In this document: positions 21,711-27,229 of the stretch, piece by piece | Position numbering within the stretch: position 1 is the stretch's first letter | How the letters are laid out: each line of letters starts with the position of its first letter | Source: Candidatus Iainarchaeum sp. | GTDB taxonomy: Archaea; Iainarchaeota; Iainarchaeia; Iainarchaeales; GCA-2688035 | Assembly (NCBI GenBank): GCA_017610205.1 | Contig: JAFCCL010000003.1 | Location: 62,001 to 126,000, forward strand | DNA length: 64,000 bases | Direction: 5' to 3' | Translations under genes and position numbers: made by a program | The notes under the pieces: model-generated | The model's input: only the letters and a program-made list of their open reading frames with translations | What the model was told of the DNA's origin: nothing | Database searches by the model: none

Positions 21711-21731
21711 CATTCGCCTGATTTAAATTAT

Positions 21732-23192
21732 ATGGTTGGAAAAGACATTTTACATGTTAAAGAGGCGTTGACCTTTGATGACGTTCTACTTGTTCCTGGT
21801 TCAAGCAAAATTTTGCCAAAAGACGTTAATCTAAACACAAGGCTTTCAAAGAAACTAAAAATTAACATTCCTCTGGTTTCTGCTGCAATGGACACTGTTA
21901 CTGAATCGCAGACAGCAATTGCAATTGCAAGAGAGGGTGGAATTGGAATAATTCACAAAAATTTAAACGCAGAACAGCAGTCGGCAGAAGTAAGCAAGGT
22001 TAAAAGAAGCGAATTTTTGATTGTAAGCAATCCACTGTGTGTAAGCCCTGATAACTCCTTACAGCAGGTTTTTGAATTGCAGAAAGCAAAGGGCATTGGA
22101 AGCTTTCCTGTTGTAAAAAACGGAAAGCTTGTTGGAATTTTGACCCAAAGAGACCTTTCCTTTGAATCGGATTTTTCAAAAAAGGTTTTGGAACTTATGA
22201 CAAAAGACGTTGTAAGCATTGACCACAAGCCAAGCATTGATGAAGCAAAGGAAATTTTGCACAAGTACAGGATTGAAAAATTGCCAATAATTGATTCAAG
22301 TGGAAAAATTACCGGAATGCTTACTGCAACAGACATTAGAAAGCAGGAGCTTTATCCAAATGCTGCCAAGGACAAAAAAGGCCAGCTTGTTGTAGGTGCT
22401 GCGGTTGGAGTAAATGACAGGGAAAGAATTGGAAAACTTATTGAAGCAGGGGTTGACACCATAGTTGTTGACACCGCTCACGGCCACAGCAAAGGTGTTG
22501 TTGAAGTAGTTAAACGCTACAAAAAACAATTTGATGTCGAGCTTATTGCGGGAAATGTTGCAACACCAGAAGCAGTACATGACCTTGCATCAGCCGGAGC
22601 AGACGCTGTAAAGGTAGGTGTTGGGCCAGGAGCAATTTGTACTACCAGAATAATAAGTGGTGTTGGCGTTCCGCAATTTACTGCCGTTCTTGAATGCAGT
22701 AAAGCGGCAAAAAAATACAATGTTCCAATTATTGCCGATGGTGGCATTCGCTACAGTGGCGACATTGTTAAAGCCTTGGCTGCAGGGGCTTCAAGCATTA
22801 TGCTTGGCTCGCTGTTTGCAGGCTGTGAGGAAACCCCTGGCAGGACGGTTTTTCTTTACAACAGGAAATTTAAACAGTACAGAGGAATGGGTTCTTTGGG
22901 GGCAATGCAAAAGGGCGGAAAGGAAAGATACTTTCAAGGCGATGTAAGTGATGCAAGCAAGCTTGTGCCTGAGGGTGTTGAAGGAATTGTTCCCTACAAA
23001 GGAATGGTTAGTGAAATGGTTTTCCAATTGCTTGGAGGGCTTCGTTCAGGAATGGGAATGATTGGAGCAAAAGACATTGCTACCTTGAAAAAGAACACTA
23101 AGTGGATTAAAATTACTGCTGCAGGAGTAAAGGAATCACACCCTCACAATATTAATATTACTGAGGAAAGCCCAAATTATTCAGGAAAGTAG
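21732..23192 (+). CDS. guaB: Inosine-5'-monophosphate dehydrogenase
   Basis: GuaB oxidises IMP to XMP with NAD, the committed step to GMP. The 486-residue protein has [13 protein letters not shown] at the start, two CBS domains at about 95-215 (ILTQRDLSF and MLTATDIRK mark the repeats), the catalytic loop [18 protein letters not shown] with its Cys, the [11 protein letters not shown] segment and the flap-region [10 protein letters not shown]. Length is normal. The frame is open far upstream, but ATG 21732 matches the conserved N-terminus and the BoxA. guaA is not in the window. Confidence 0.96.
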
Positions 23193-23206: not shown

Positions 23207-23887
23207 TTAAGGGGTTAATTCTAACTCGTGGCGCTCAATATACTCTCTTAATTTAGTTTTTACCCTTGATATTCTACTTTTAACTATTGAAACATTCTCG
23301 CCCAAATGTTTGGCTGTTTGTTCTAATGTCCTAGGAGACCTGTCTGAGTATACATAAGATTCTCTAATTTTATAACGGTATGCAAAAGTTTTTTTTGACT
23401 TTTCATCAATTCCGATTTTTTTTAAAATATTCCCAACTACATTAAACACCCCTTGTTCAGGCATTTCAACTTTTGCCCTTTTGTCAACCATTTTGAGAAA
23501 CATTTCAAAAGACCTTGTTTGAGCCAACTTTCTTTCATATTTTTCCTGTCTTAAAATATTACGCATTGCATTTTTTGCTGTTCTCAAAAAATAATGTCTT
23601 GTTTTCCGAACAGACGGCATTCCTGCAGCAGTCATGATGTGTATCACGGCTTCTGAAATCATTTGGTCATGAAGTGAATTTTTTTCACTAGGTTTTTTAT
23701 CCCAGGGTGATGCCTTTTTTACATATGGTTTCTTTCGTGCATACCTTTCTGCCATTTTTTCCAGAATAGGCATGATTGGCTCTACAAATTTAGCATATCT
23801 TCTTTCTCCTTCTGCTTTTGGCATCTGCAGTCTTTTAGCAGTCTTAAATCCCATTACTCTCTTTTCCGGCCTATTTCTTAACACCAT
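23207..23887 (-). CDS. Sigma-70-like protein (regions 2 and 4), paralogue 1
   Basis: A very basic protein of 226 residues. The middle (about 75-130) resembles sigma region 2: a helix ending YFLRTAKNAMRNILRQEKYE, comparable to the YRIARNLALDxLRR core of ECF sigma factors. The C-terminus (about 170-220) resembles region 4: LEQTAKHLGENVSIVKSRIS followed by RVKTKLREYIE, a canonical sigma-type helix-turn-helix. It shares an N-terminal block with the protein at 24779 (ERRYAKFVEPIMPILEKMA versus EERFNRFVKPFEKTLGHMA). Archaeal RNA polymerase uses TBP and TFB, so its job is unknown; it could be a DNA-binding regulator or mobile-element-derived. An AT-rich box 27 nt upstream suggests a leaderless start. 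Confidence 0.7.
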   Translation of the reverse strand: MVLRNRPEKRVMGFKTAKRLQMPKAEGERRYAKFVEPIMPILEKMAERYARKKPYVKKASPWDKKPSEKNSLHDQMISEAVIHIMTAAGMPSVRKTRHYFLRTAKNAMRNILRQEKYERKLAQTRSFEMFLKMVDKRAKVEMPEQGVFNVVGNILKKIGIDEKSKKTFAYRYKIRESYVYSDRSPRTLEQTAKHLGENVSIVKSRISRVKTKLREYIERHELELTP

Positions 23888-23943
23888 AACACAATTAGTT
23901 CACTGCTGATTAATAATCTTTTCTAAATAAATTAGTTTTTGCT

Positions 23944-24643
23944 TTACGCAATCCCTTTCAAGTAAGCAAGCCTTTTTTCTTCTTCAAACCTTTCAATTGC
24001 ATACCTTAGCATAGTGCGTGGCATTTTCTTGTAGTGCTTTTTTCAAAAACTTTTCTTCCACTGCCAAATCCCTTTTTCCAACTTCTCTTAACATCCAGCC
24101 AACTGCTTTGTGAATGAGGTCGTGTTTGTCGTGCAAAAGAATTTCTGAAATTTTTAACGTGTCGTCAAAATCGTTGTTTTTGATAAATGCAAGCGTTGAA
24201 ATTATTGCAATCCTTTTTTTCCAAAGTTTGCTTGATTTGGCAAGCTTGTACAAAACCTGCCTGTTCTTTTTCATTAAATACACTCCCACAATCTTTGGAG
24301 CAGTTAGGTCTACTAAATCCCAGTTGTTTACTCCCTGCAGGTTTTCAAAATAAAAATCAAATACCTTTTTTTTCTCAGCATCGTCTGCTTTTTCAAACTT
24401 TTCTACCAGAATCAGCAATGCTACAAGCCTTTCCTCGTGAATTTTTGAATTCAAAAAAGGCTTTAGTTTTTGCAGTTCAATTTCACTGAATTTTTTTGCA
24501 ACCTTTCTTTGCTCTCCAACACTTGCCCCGATAAAAACGTCGCCTTCACCATACTGTCCCTTTCCTGTTTTGAAAAAACCCTGAAGTATTTTTGCCTTTT
24601 CCGGGTTAGAATGAATTGCAATTTCTTGCTTTAGAGAAATCAT
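23944..24643 (-). pseudogene. DNA alkylation repair protein (AlkD-like HEAT repeat), 1-nt frameshift near C-terminus
   Basis: AlkD-type glycosylases remove bulky alkylated bases using HEAT-like helical repeats. The main frame (to 23993) contains family segments NWDLVDLTAPKIVG, and KHDLIHKAVGWMLREVGKRD near residues 175-195. The family's usual ending is found in another frame: MPRTMLRYAIERF, then a stop at 23944-23946. The break is at a run of six T on the plus strand (24038-24043); five would restore LKKHYKKMPRTM. It could be a genuine frameshift mutation or a homopolymer error in the assembly. If the sequence is right, the protein ends early as a 216-residue form. Confidence 0.78.
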
Positions 24644-24778
24644 TTAAAAACCAACATTACTTCTTTGCCGCAAGTCCATTCAGAAGCTTTTTTTTTATTT
24701 AAAATAATTAGGCCTGTTTTCCATTAAAAGTTGTTACTTATTCCTTTTTTCCCCTCCGAACTATTATGGGAATTAGTT

Positions 24779-25372
24779 CTATTTTTCTGAAAGCATTTCC
24801 TTCAATTTTTTTCTTGCATTGAAGATAACCCTTTGAGCTGTTCCTGTTGGAACGCCAAAATGTGCAGCGGTTTCCCTGTATTTCTTTGGAGTGTTTCCTC
24901 CAAGGCCTGTGTGGTGGAGAAACATTGCCTTGTCCCTTTGGCTTAAATCAGAAACGTCCACAAGCATTTTTACAACCTTTATTATTTCCTTCTCATTTGA
25001 CCTGCCTAACTTGTTCAAAATATTCTTTGTTCCTGGGTTTCTGTTTGAACTAGTTGTGATATATTCCCTGATGGTTCTTCTGTAGCTTCTTTCAGCTAAG
25101 GCATCGTTTAGCATAGAATGTCTTGCAATAACTATTGCAAAGTTTTGTTTGGGTCTTCCTTTTTGATAATTGCCTGTTCCGGAAACAATTTTTAAGGTGG
25201 CCTTTGCCAAATAATCTTCTGCCAGTTCACGCTTTCCGTTTGCAATCCTTAGAGCCATATGCCCTAACGTTTTCTCAAATGGCTTAACAAATCGGTTGAA
25301 CCTTTCTTCCGCAACATTCTGTTTCTTTGGCCATTTTTTCATCCACGCAGGGTTTGCTTTTTTCTTTGCCAT
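24779..25372 (-). CDS. Sigma-70-like protein (regions 2 and 4), paralogue 2
   Basis: A basic protein of about 197 residues with the clearest sigma-factor likeness in the window. Region-2-like: NGKRELAEDYLAKATLKIV then a helix with FAIVIARHSMLNDALAERSY (about 45-100), matching the AEDLxQExFLKI... IARNxxLDxLR pattern. Region-4-like: LSQRDKAMFLHHTGLGG, then YRETAAHFGVPTGTAQRVIF and NARKKLKEML (about 145-195), a sigma helix-turn-helix. ATG 25372 stands about 26 nt after ATTTAAATA, giving a leaderless start. A palindrome lies upstream (25461-25485). Divergent family members act as RNA polymerase specificity factors in bacteria; the role here is unknown. Confidence 0.75.
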   Translation of the reverse strand: MAKKKANPAWMKKWPKKQNVAEERFNRFVKPFEKTLGHMALRIANGKRELAEDYLAKATLKIVSGTGNYQKGRPKQNFAIVIARHSMLNDALAERSYRRTIREYITTSSNRNPGTKNILNKLGRSNEKEIIKVVKMLVDVSDLSQRDKAMFLHHTGLGGNTPKKYRETAAHFGVPTGTAQRVIFNARKKLKEMLSEK

Positions 25373-25460
25373 AAAAGAATTTAACATTCAACTATTTAAA
25401 TAAATAGTGCAACAGGATGGTTTTGAATAAATGGATTGCAGTGTAAGATATTCAAACCAG

Positions 25461-25523: not shown

Positions 25524-27229
25524 GTAACAGTTTAAATTTTTCCCGTTAGCTGGGTGGTGAGGCTGTCGTGCAGTATTTGGTAATATTGTTGGTTGCGGTG
25601 TTTGCTGGTCATGTATAGGGATGCTTGCATGGCATAGCTTTGCATGTGTTTTGTGCTTCTGTTTTGTTGGCTGATTTTGCGTTTTAGGACTTCGTGTCTT
25701 AGGTCTCGTTCTGCTCTGTTGTTTGTGGGGTCAACGTATGGGTATTCGAGGAAGGTGAACCACTTGCCTTGTTGTTTAAGGATGTATTTTTTGAGGCGCA
25801 GGGTGTTTTTTCCAAACCATCTGTTTTGTCGCCTGTTTTTTTCTCCTAATAGGGTTAGGATTTCTGTGTCGTATTTTTGTCTGAGTTCTTTGGAGCAGCC
25901 GATTTCGCGTTTGTCTTTTTTTGCTTGGCTAAAGGGTTGCATGATTTTTTCTACAAGTGTTTCGTAGTCTCTTTTTTCCTTTTTTGTTTTGAAGTAGTGC
26001 TTGGGCTTTTTTGCAAGCCTGGATAGGTGTTCCCAGCACTTTTGCTGTTTTTTGCTGGTTTTATTGTATGCTGCAAGCGCGTCAGAGATTGTAACGCAGT
26101 CTTTGTTGGTTTTTAGGGAGCATGCTGTTTCCGAGTTTCGTTTTTCTGTTATTTGAAAGTAAACTGTTTGTGCTGTGCTTGCAACCCATAGCCAGTTTAG
26201 TTTTCCGTTTTTTTGCCACCCTGTTTCGTCACGATGCACGAACAAGGCCTTTTGTATTTCTTCCTCAAGATTTTTGTAATCTTCTTTTAGGTAGTCTTTG
26301 AGTCGTTGCAGGGTATTGCTTACTGTTGCAGGCGAGATGTCCAAGCTGAAGATGGTTGAGAACAGTTCGCTTATTTTCCTATCAGACATGTTAAAGCCTG
26401 TGAACAGCACTGATATGAGGATTGCTGTATTTAAGTCAAACTTGCTGCCAGGCAAAGCGTCAGGTAGCCTTGGAATAACCTCTTTCTTGCAGTCCAGGCA
26501 GTAGTATGCTCAGATCTTGTTGAGTACGCGTTCAAGTGTTGGGGACTTGATGTGGATTGTCGTGCGAAAATACTTTTTCTTCTTTCTTGTTATCCTTGTT
26601 CCTCCACAGCAAGGGCAACGCTTCATAGTAACGTCTCTCTCCCTATCATGGACTTTTGGCCTGGAGTTGCGCAGGTTCTGTTTAGGTTTTCCCTGTTCTG
26701 GTTTCAACGCTTCCTGCACTTTGTTCCTCAAACCAGGTTTCAAATGGGGTGGGATACTGCCTGAAGGGGTGTTCTCGTTCTGATATTTTCGCAGCTCTCC
26801 TAAAAGCCGCTTATTTTCCTTAAGTAAGAACATAAGCTGATCTTTAAACTCGAAAATAATCTTGTCCTTTTCAGCGATGATTTTTCTTTGTCCAGCAACT
26901 ATCTCTTTTAGTACAGTAACCTGTTCAGCAATCTTCTTTTCCAGTTCTACAGTGTTAGCTTCAAAGCGTTCTGTTATTTTGCGAAGTTTAGCCTTGTTCA
27001 TGATATCAACACAACTCTAACTCTCTTACCAATCCACTTCTTTGGCAAGTAAACCCTGCCACTATTACCGCTAGATTGAACGAGCTTCTCAATGACCTCA
27101 TAGCCCTCCAATCGAATCGAAATAGCCTTTTTCATGTAGCTACAATGTAGCTACATAGATTGGTTAAACATATCTATCAGCCAAAACAACACAAAATGCG
27201 TCAAAAAGAGGATATTTTTAAACTGTTAC
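25524..27229. mobile_element. IS66-like insertion sequence, transposase-only type
   Basis: The 1706-bp element is bounded by inverted repeats with a 13-bp perfect core: GTAACAGTTTAAA at 25524-25536 and its complement ending at 27229. IS66-family ends typically begin GTAA. It carries one interrupted transposase frame on the minus strand and no tnpA/tnpB accessory genes, as in the ISBst12-like subgroup. The flanking octamers (TATTAACT on the left, TATTTTTT on the right) share only part of their sequence, so a clean 8-bp target duplication is not evident and the insertion may be old or rearranged. Confidence 0.82.
25532..27001 (-). pseudogene. IS66-family transposase with an internal in-frame TGA
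   Basis: The N-terminal part (26510-27001) has a coiled coil (about 5-70) and a zinc motif CPCCGG. The C-terminal part (to 25532) has the catalytic DDE pattern: FVHRDETGWQKNGKLNWLW, ISDALAAYN and NNRAERDLR, plus CLDCKK. Both parts are in the same frame, separated by a single TGA at 26510-26512 (LNKI-stop-AYYCLDCKK); CGA would restore Arg. The transposase is therefore probably inactive, unless the stop is read through or the C-terminal part restarts at the TTG at 26455. The final stop codon lies inside the terminal repeat. Confidence 0.85.

Follow-up and report, generated by a model that had tools for sequence, protein, structure and literature searches.

In the textbook view sigma factors are bacterial proteins, and archaeal transcription is initiated by TBP, TFB and TFE. 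Bacterial sigma factors contact the clamp helices of the polymerase through the DxxQ motif of region 2.2, while region 4 grips the beta-flap tip, an element that is to our knowledge missing from archaeal polymerase. The first archaeal exceptions, from the work of Rinke and colleagues, reportedly concerned Diapherotrites and Nanoarchaeota among others. A review (PMC6126073) credits Rinke et al. 2013 with these first archaeal sigma factors, and Castelle et al. 2021 (PMC8204110) described sigma-70 genes in DPANN genomes, mostly of Woesearchaeota, excluded mis-binning, found no anti-sigma factor and left the role of the genes open. Our literature search found no paper on the function of archaeal sigma genes, on a tandem pair of them or on their adjacency to TFB genes. 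Sigma-70 genes in DPANN are thus already on record, and the pair of genes described here is a new, strongly diverged example.

The closest described system is that of the bacterial ECF (group 4) sigma-70 factors such as M. tuberculosis SigH and E. coli RpoE, which share the two-domain layout and the motifs of regions 2.2/2.4 and 4.2 with our pair and were its best match in both sequence and fold. Unlike bacterial ECF factors, the pair scores below curated cut-offs, has no recognised anti-sigma gene beside it, includes one member without the DxxQ residues, and resides in a host with archaeal polymerase and TFB. With the DPANN sigma-70 family fam00359 (PMC8204110), of which it may be a part, it has in common the occurrence in DPANN, the exclusion of mis-binning and the failure to find an anti-sigma factor, whereas fam00359 stems mostly from Woesearchaeota and our genes from Diapherotrites, where they form a diverged, lineage-specific ECF clade with a syntenic tandem pair and, in one genome, TFB adjacency. 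TFB, the archaeal TFIIB, is likewise an initiation factor with HTH repeats, and its HTH weakly matches Sigma70_r4; unlike TFB, the two proteins have neither Zn ribbon nor cyclin repeats, and neither was matched by PF08271 (Zn ribbon) or PF00382 (TFIIB repeat).

The window, i.e. the whole stretch of 64,000 nucleotides that was analysed, encodes on its minus strand an ECF-type sigma-70 homologue of 226 aa (P0001, 23207-23887) and a second one of 202 aa counted from the first ATG (P0002, 24779-25387). Both ORFs are intact where the first-pass annotation had placed them, and its central claim of two paralogous sigma-70-like proteins with regions 2 and 4 was borne out. Model TIGR02937 matched both over nearly its full length: residues 29-198 of P0002 align to positions 3-165 of 165 (E=2.9e-9, 36.8 bits), and residues 39-215 of P0001 to positions 12-164 of 165 (E=1.2e-6, 28.2 bits). 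These scores fall under the curated 42.9-bit cut-off, which marks a limit for annotation and is no biological property, and the two genes would therefore probably escape automatic annotation; two relatives exceed it (L013 with 47.2 and L058 with 44.2 bits). Pfam models of single sigma regions gave weak matches. Region 2 is followed by region 4, in this order and within about 160-200 aa, in both proteins (in P0002 at residues ~39-94 and, as an HTH, ~167-196). The two share 20% identity and are paralogues within one supported clade. P0001 and P0002 are full-length sigma-70 homologues by descent, distant yet clear.

A profile of the seven-member family, run against all PDB sequences, returned 12 matches, every one of them a sigma factor, headed by M. 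tuberculosis SigH (E=2.3e-5, positions 28-202 of 208). The two AlphaFold models, built from six-sequence alignments, were all-helical with mean pLDDT values of 77.0 and 71.6, and the best 50 Foldseek matches of each model in the PDB were all sigma factors or sigma-containing entries. SigH (5zx2_F) ranked first for the P0002 model with a probability of 1.00; for P0001 the Foldseek E-values were weak (best 0.027). Whole-chain TM-scores were low, at about 0.3, which probably reflects an unreliable predicted placement of two flexibly linked domains that were compared rigidly. A better match to a transposase or phage regulator, which had been named at first pass as grounds for abandoning the sigma assignment, was not found for either protein in Pfam or NCBIfam. 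Among the PHROG families the best match of P0002 was a sigma factor and those of P0001 were weak, with E above 0.01, and models of defence systems matched neither member of the pair.

An AlkD-family DNA alkylation repair gene (23993-24643, minus strand; PF08713, E=7.4e-55) lies between the two, so that the earlier description of two ORFs on one strand flanking an alkD-like gene holds. Within 23940-24090 the AlkD gene terminates out of frame relative to its 232-aa orthologues, and the usual C-terminus is found in the next frame. On the other side of P0001 an IMP dehydrogenase (IMPDH) gene (21717-23192, plus strand; PF00478, E=1.1e-156) is convergent with it and ends 15 bp from its stop. Upstream of P0002 lies an IS66-family element (25524-27229, minus strand; PF03050, E=1.1e-30) with transposase genes at 25532-26455 and 26510-27001 and terminal inverted repeats GTAACAGTTTAAA at 25524-25543 and 27210-27229. 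The claim that the pair adjoins an IS element was accurate for P0002, 137 bp from the terminal repeat, but not for P0001, and in a second genus the pair occurs without IS66. We also considered IS66 as the carrier of the sigma genes and rejected it, as both lie outside its terminal repeats and occur without it in that second genus.

Shine-Dalgarno-like motifs were seen in just 4 of 50 genes, and TATA boxes before genes of the window were most common at position -27. Two overlapping TATA boxes, TTTATTTA and TTTAAATA (25393-25404, minus strand), precede P0002; counted from its second ATG (25372) they are centred at -28 and -24, with 7/8 and 8/8 positions matching. Because this places them near the window-wide peak, the true start of P0002 is probably the second ATG, which would give a protein of 197 aa. 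Both genes had been called leaderless; for P0002 this stands on condition of the start at 25372, and support is limited to that gene.

In a genome of a second genus (G006), publicly recorded as Candidatus Diapherotrites archaeon, an orthologue of P0001 with 39-44% identity adjoins a P0002 relative and lies a few bases from IMPDH; IS66 is missing there. The P0002 relative is split over two frames, and its sequence reads as frameshifted through decay or sequencing error. Conservation and synteny, which the first pass had proposed to check, are found in this genome and missing in sister species: three other genomes of the window's genus (G002, G003, G004) have IMPDH followed directly by AlkD with the sigma genes absent, and G014, from the genus of G006, has neither sigma genes nor AlkD beside IMPDH. 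In the phylogenetic tree P0001 groups with its orthologue (support 100/99), P0002 with its own (90/83), and all seven members form one clade (98/99); the tree included few bacterial sequences, and its deep branches are weak. Given the shared IMPDH site and the pairing of each gene with its orthologue, the tandem pair would most simply predate the split of the two genera, with independent insertion at one hot spot as a less likely alternative. The pair is probably old but readily lost, which argues for an accessory regulator rather than a general initiation factor.

The uniqueness that the first-pass annotation implied did not hold, and not only in view of the published DPANN sigma factors. Five sigma-like loci are present in the window genome (G000). 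Besides the window pair these are an ECF-type gene on contig C11 (L002), a 302-aa protein above curated cut-off on C10 (L001, 69934-70548), and a sigma-like locus with an N-terminal HTH on C16 (L003, 114950-115570). The C10 protein is FliA/WhiG-like (group 3), unlike the window pair, and matches over regions 2-4 (E=4e-19), as does its orthologue L022 on contig C166 of G002 (E=5e-31), both under the FliA/WhiG cut-off. L003 has an in-frame TAA between regions 2 and 4 and may be decayed, split or misread; some sigma copies may thus be decaying. Across the phylum, sigma region 2 (PF04542, E<=0.01) was detected in 25 of 87 Iainarchaeota/Diapherotrites genomes with roughly 38 matches, in none of four archaeal control genomes and in all ten bacterial controls. 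The seven-member profile was too diverse for a scan of the collection, and a four-member profile run on the genomes returned three loci, all previously found. A gene for a RIO/Bud32-like kinase adjoins the FliA/WhiG-like sigma gene in both species (L001 and L022). Beside L002 and beside L013 (contig C10 of G004) we observed a divergent winged-helix-like ORF of 115 aa or 111 aa, a candidate partner or regulator.

One further relative lies next to a TFB gene. On contig C12 of G005, which belongs to the window's genus, TFB (L054, 6118-7023) is followed after 12 bp on the same strand by the sigma gene L058 (7036-7668), whose Pfam region 2 score of 45.6 bits exceeds the cut-off of 24 bits. In sister species the place between TFB and RNase HII is taken by another small gene. 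By gene number such an adjacency would arise by chance at a few per cent, and it was noticed post hoc as one of about 38 matches; we treat it as a lead. As a general rule a TFB-sigma operon was rejected, since only this one of eight inspected TFB neighbourhoods had it. The search for anti-sigma factors gave no zf-HC2 hit over cut-off in any phylum genome, and no anti-sigma gene was recognised adjoining the pair, whose neighbours are AlkD, IMPDH and IS66; in ECF sigma systems such a neighbour is frequent but not obligatory.

Region 4.2 is well preserved in both window proteins. In the motif alignment, for which the RpoE and FliA reference sequences were entered from general knowledge, P0002 keeps the D of DxxQ with an A in place of Q, and P0001 and its orthologue in G006 have neither residue; P0001 retains region 4 plus a region-2.4-like helix. 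Among 35 archaeal homologues the D was present in 32 and the Q in 23, counts that are biased in that most of these sequences had been found by the region 2 model. As the DxxQ residues differ in this way, contact with polymerase would be more likely for P0002 and its relatives than for P0001.

We favour, with a probability of roughly 0.6, the reading that P0001 and P0002 belong to an archaeal ECF-type clade (sigma2-linker-sigma4) of bacterial ancestry whose members are accessory promoter-specific factors. Such a role would most likely be exercised beside TBP and a single TFB. Transcription of the P0002 gene itself would rely on a usual archaeal promoter with a TATA box. In P0002 and its relatives region 4.2 would probably read DNA upstream of the start site, and region 2 would touch melted DNA and perhaps the clamp helices of RNA polymerase, so that proteins of this type could recruit or stabilise polymerase at a few promoters. 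P0001, whose region 2.2 no longer has the residues for clamp contact, would more likely bind DNA as a partner of P0002 or in competition with it, at identical or similar sequences. The activity of the two would depend on how they themselves are expressed, with no classical anti-sigma factor in control.

The loss of D and Q in P0001 and its orthologue, with region 4 kept, would also fit sigma domains that have been turned into mere DNA-binding regulators, repressing or activating genes with no contact to RNA polymerase. The accessory and frequently absent genes, as well as the extra N-terminal HTH-like stretches that some other homologues carry, are consistent with this. However, region 2 would be superfluous for a plain HTH repressor and is kept throughout the clade, and the D of DxxQ is present in P0002 and most relatives; we therefore regard such a reuse as possible, though on the less probable side.

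At the opposite end, the proteins might be bona fide alternative sigma factors that bind the archaeal clamp and initiate at promoters of their own in the place of TBP and TFB. Most homologues do retain the region 2.2 signature, a FliA/WhiG-like member spans regions 2 to 4, and a sigma gene adjoins TFB in G005. Moreover, TFB was found in 76 of the 87 phylum genomes, generally as a single gene in each, which as a rule leaves no alternative TFBs. Against this, the clamp-contact residues are eroded in P0001 and P0002, the genes are patchily present, and we found no report of sigma-dependent archaeal transcription in the literature, so that we consider full sigma function of the window pair unlikely. 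The wider idea that a functional sigma layer operates on the archaeal polymerase of some Diapherotrites, with sigma proteins that bind the clamp helices and initiate either at promoters of their own or jointly with TFB in one complex, and with an apparent TFB-sigma operon in one species, is rather unlikely in our view. The site offers a concrete test set, namely a pair at one place in two genera, relatives with intact polymerase-contact motifs and a TFB-adjacent sigma gene, which could show whether, and how, a transcription factor can be transplanted over the most profound divide among RNA polymerases.

The suggestion that the genes are relics of a virus fared poorly. Remnants of a sigma-carrying virus or plasmid could account for the patchy distribution, for the adjoining IS66 element and for the match of P0002 to PHROG sigma families, but relatives were absent from viral contigs in three scans and from plasmids, a phage search gave one marginal match, and none of the surrounding genes was recognised as viral. 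The pair moreover shares a chromosomal site in two genera, where the P0001 ORFs have stayed open at about 40% identity, and we hold such an origin to be very improbable.

That the pair sits in a genuine archaeal chromosome, as had been assumed at first pass, is supported by the gene content of the genome, which encodes an archaeal-type RpoA1 of 870 aa, and of the contig with the sigma pair (C17), which also encodes TFB, complete with Zn ribbon and the two TFIIB repeats; the window itself encodes FEN1 (XPG domains) and FtsZ. Kinship with G006 places the genome in Diapherotrites (GTDB Iainarchaeota). A contaminating or misbinned bacterial contig, which might be suspected in view of two relatives in MAGs that their submitters labelled as bacterial, was rejected on the TFB and FEN1 genes of the window contig and is in our estimation next to impossible. 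The two relatives are L057 (JAFCCG010000034.1) and L058 (JAFCBY010000036.1), recorded as Chloroflexi and Candidatus Falkowbacteria, respectively. Both genomes are placed in the archaeal genus of the window and one of the two contigs carries TFB; the bacterial names are apparently wrong.
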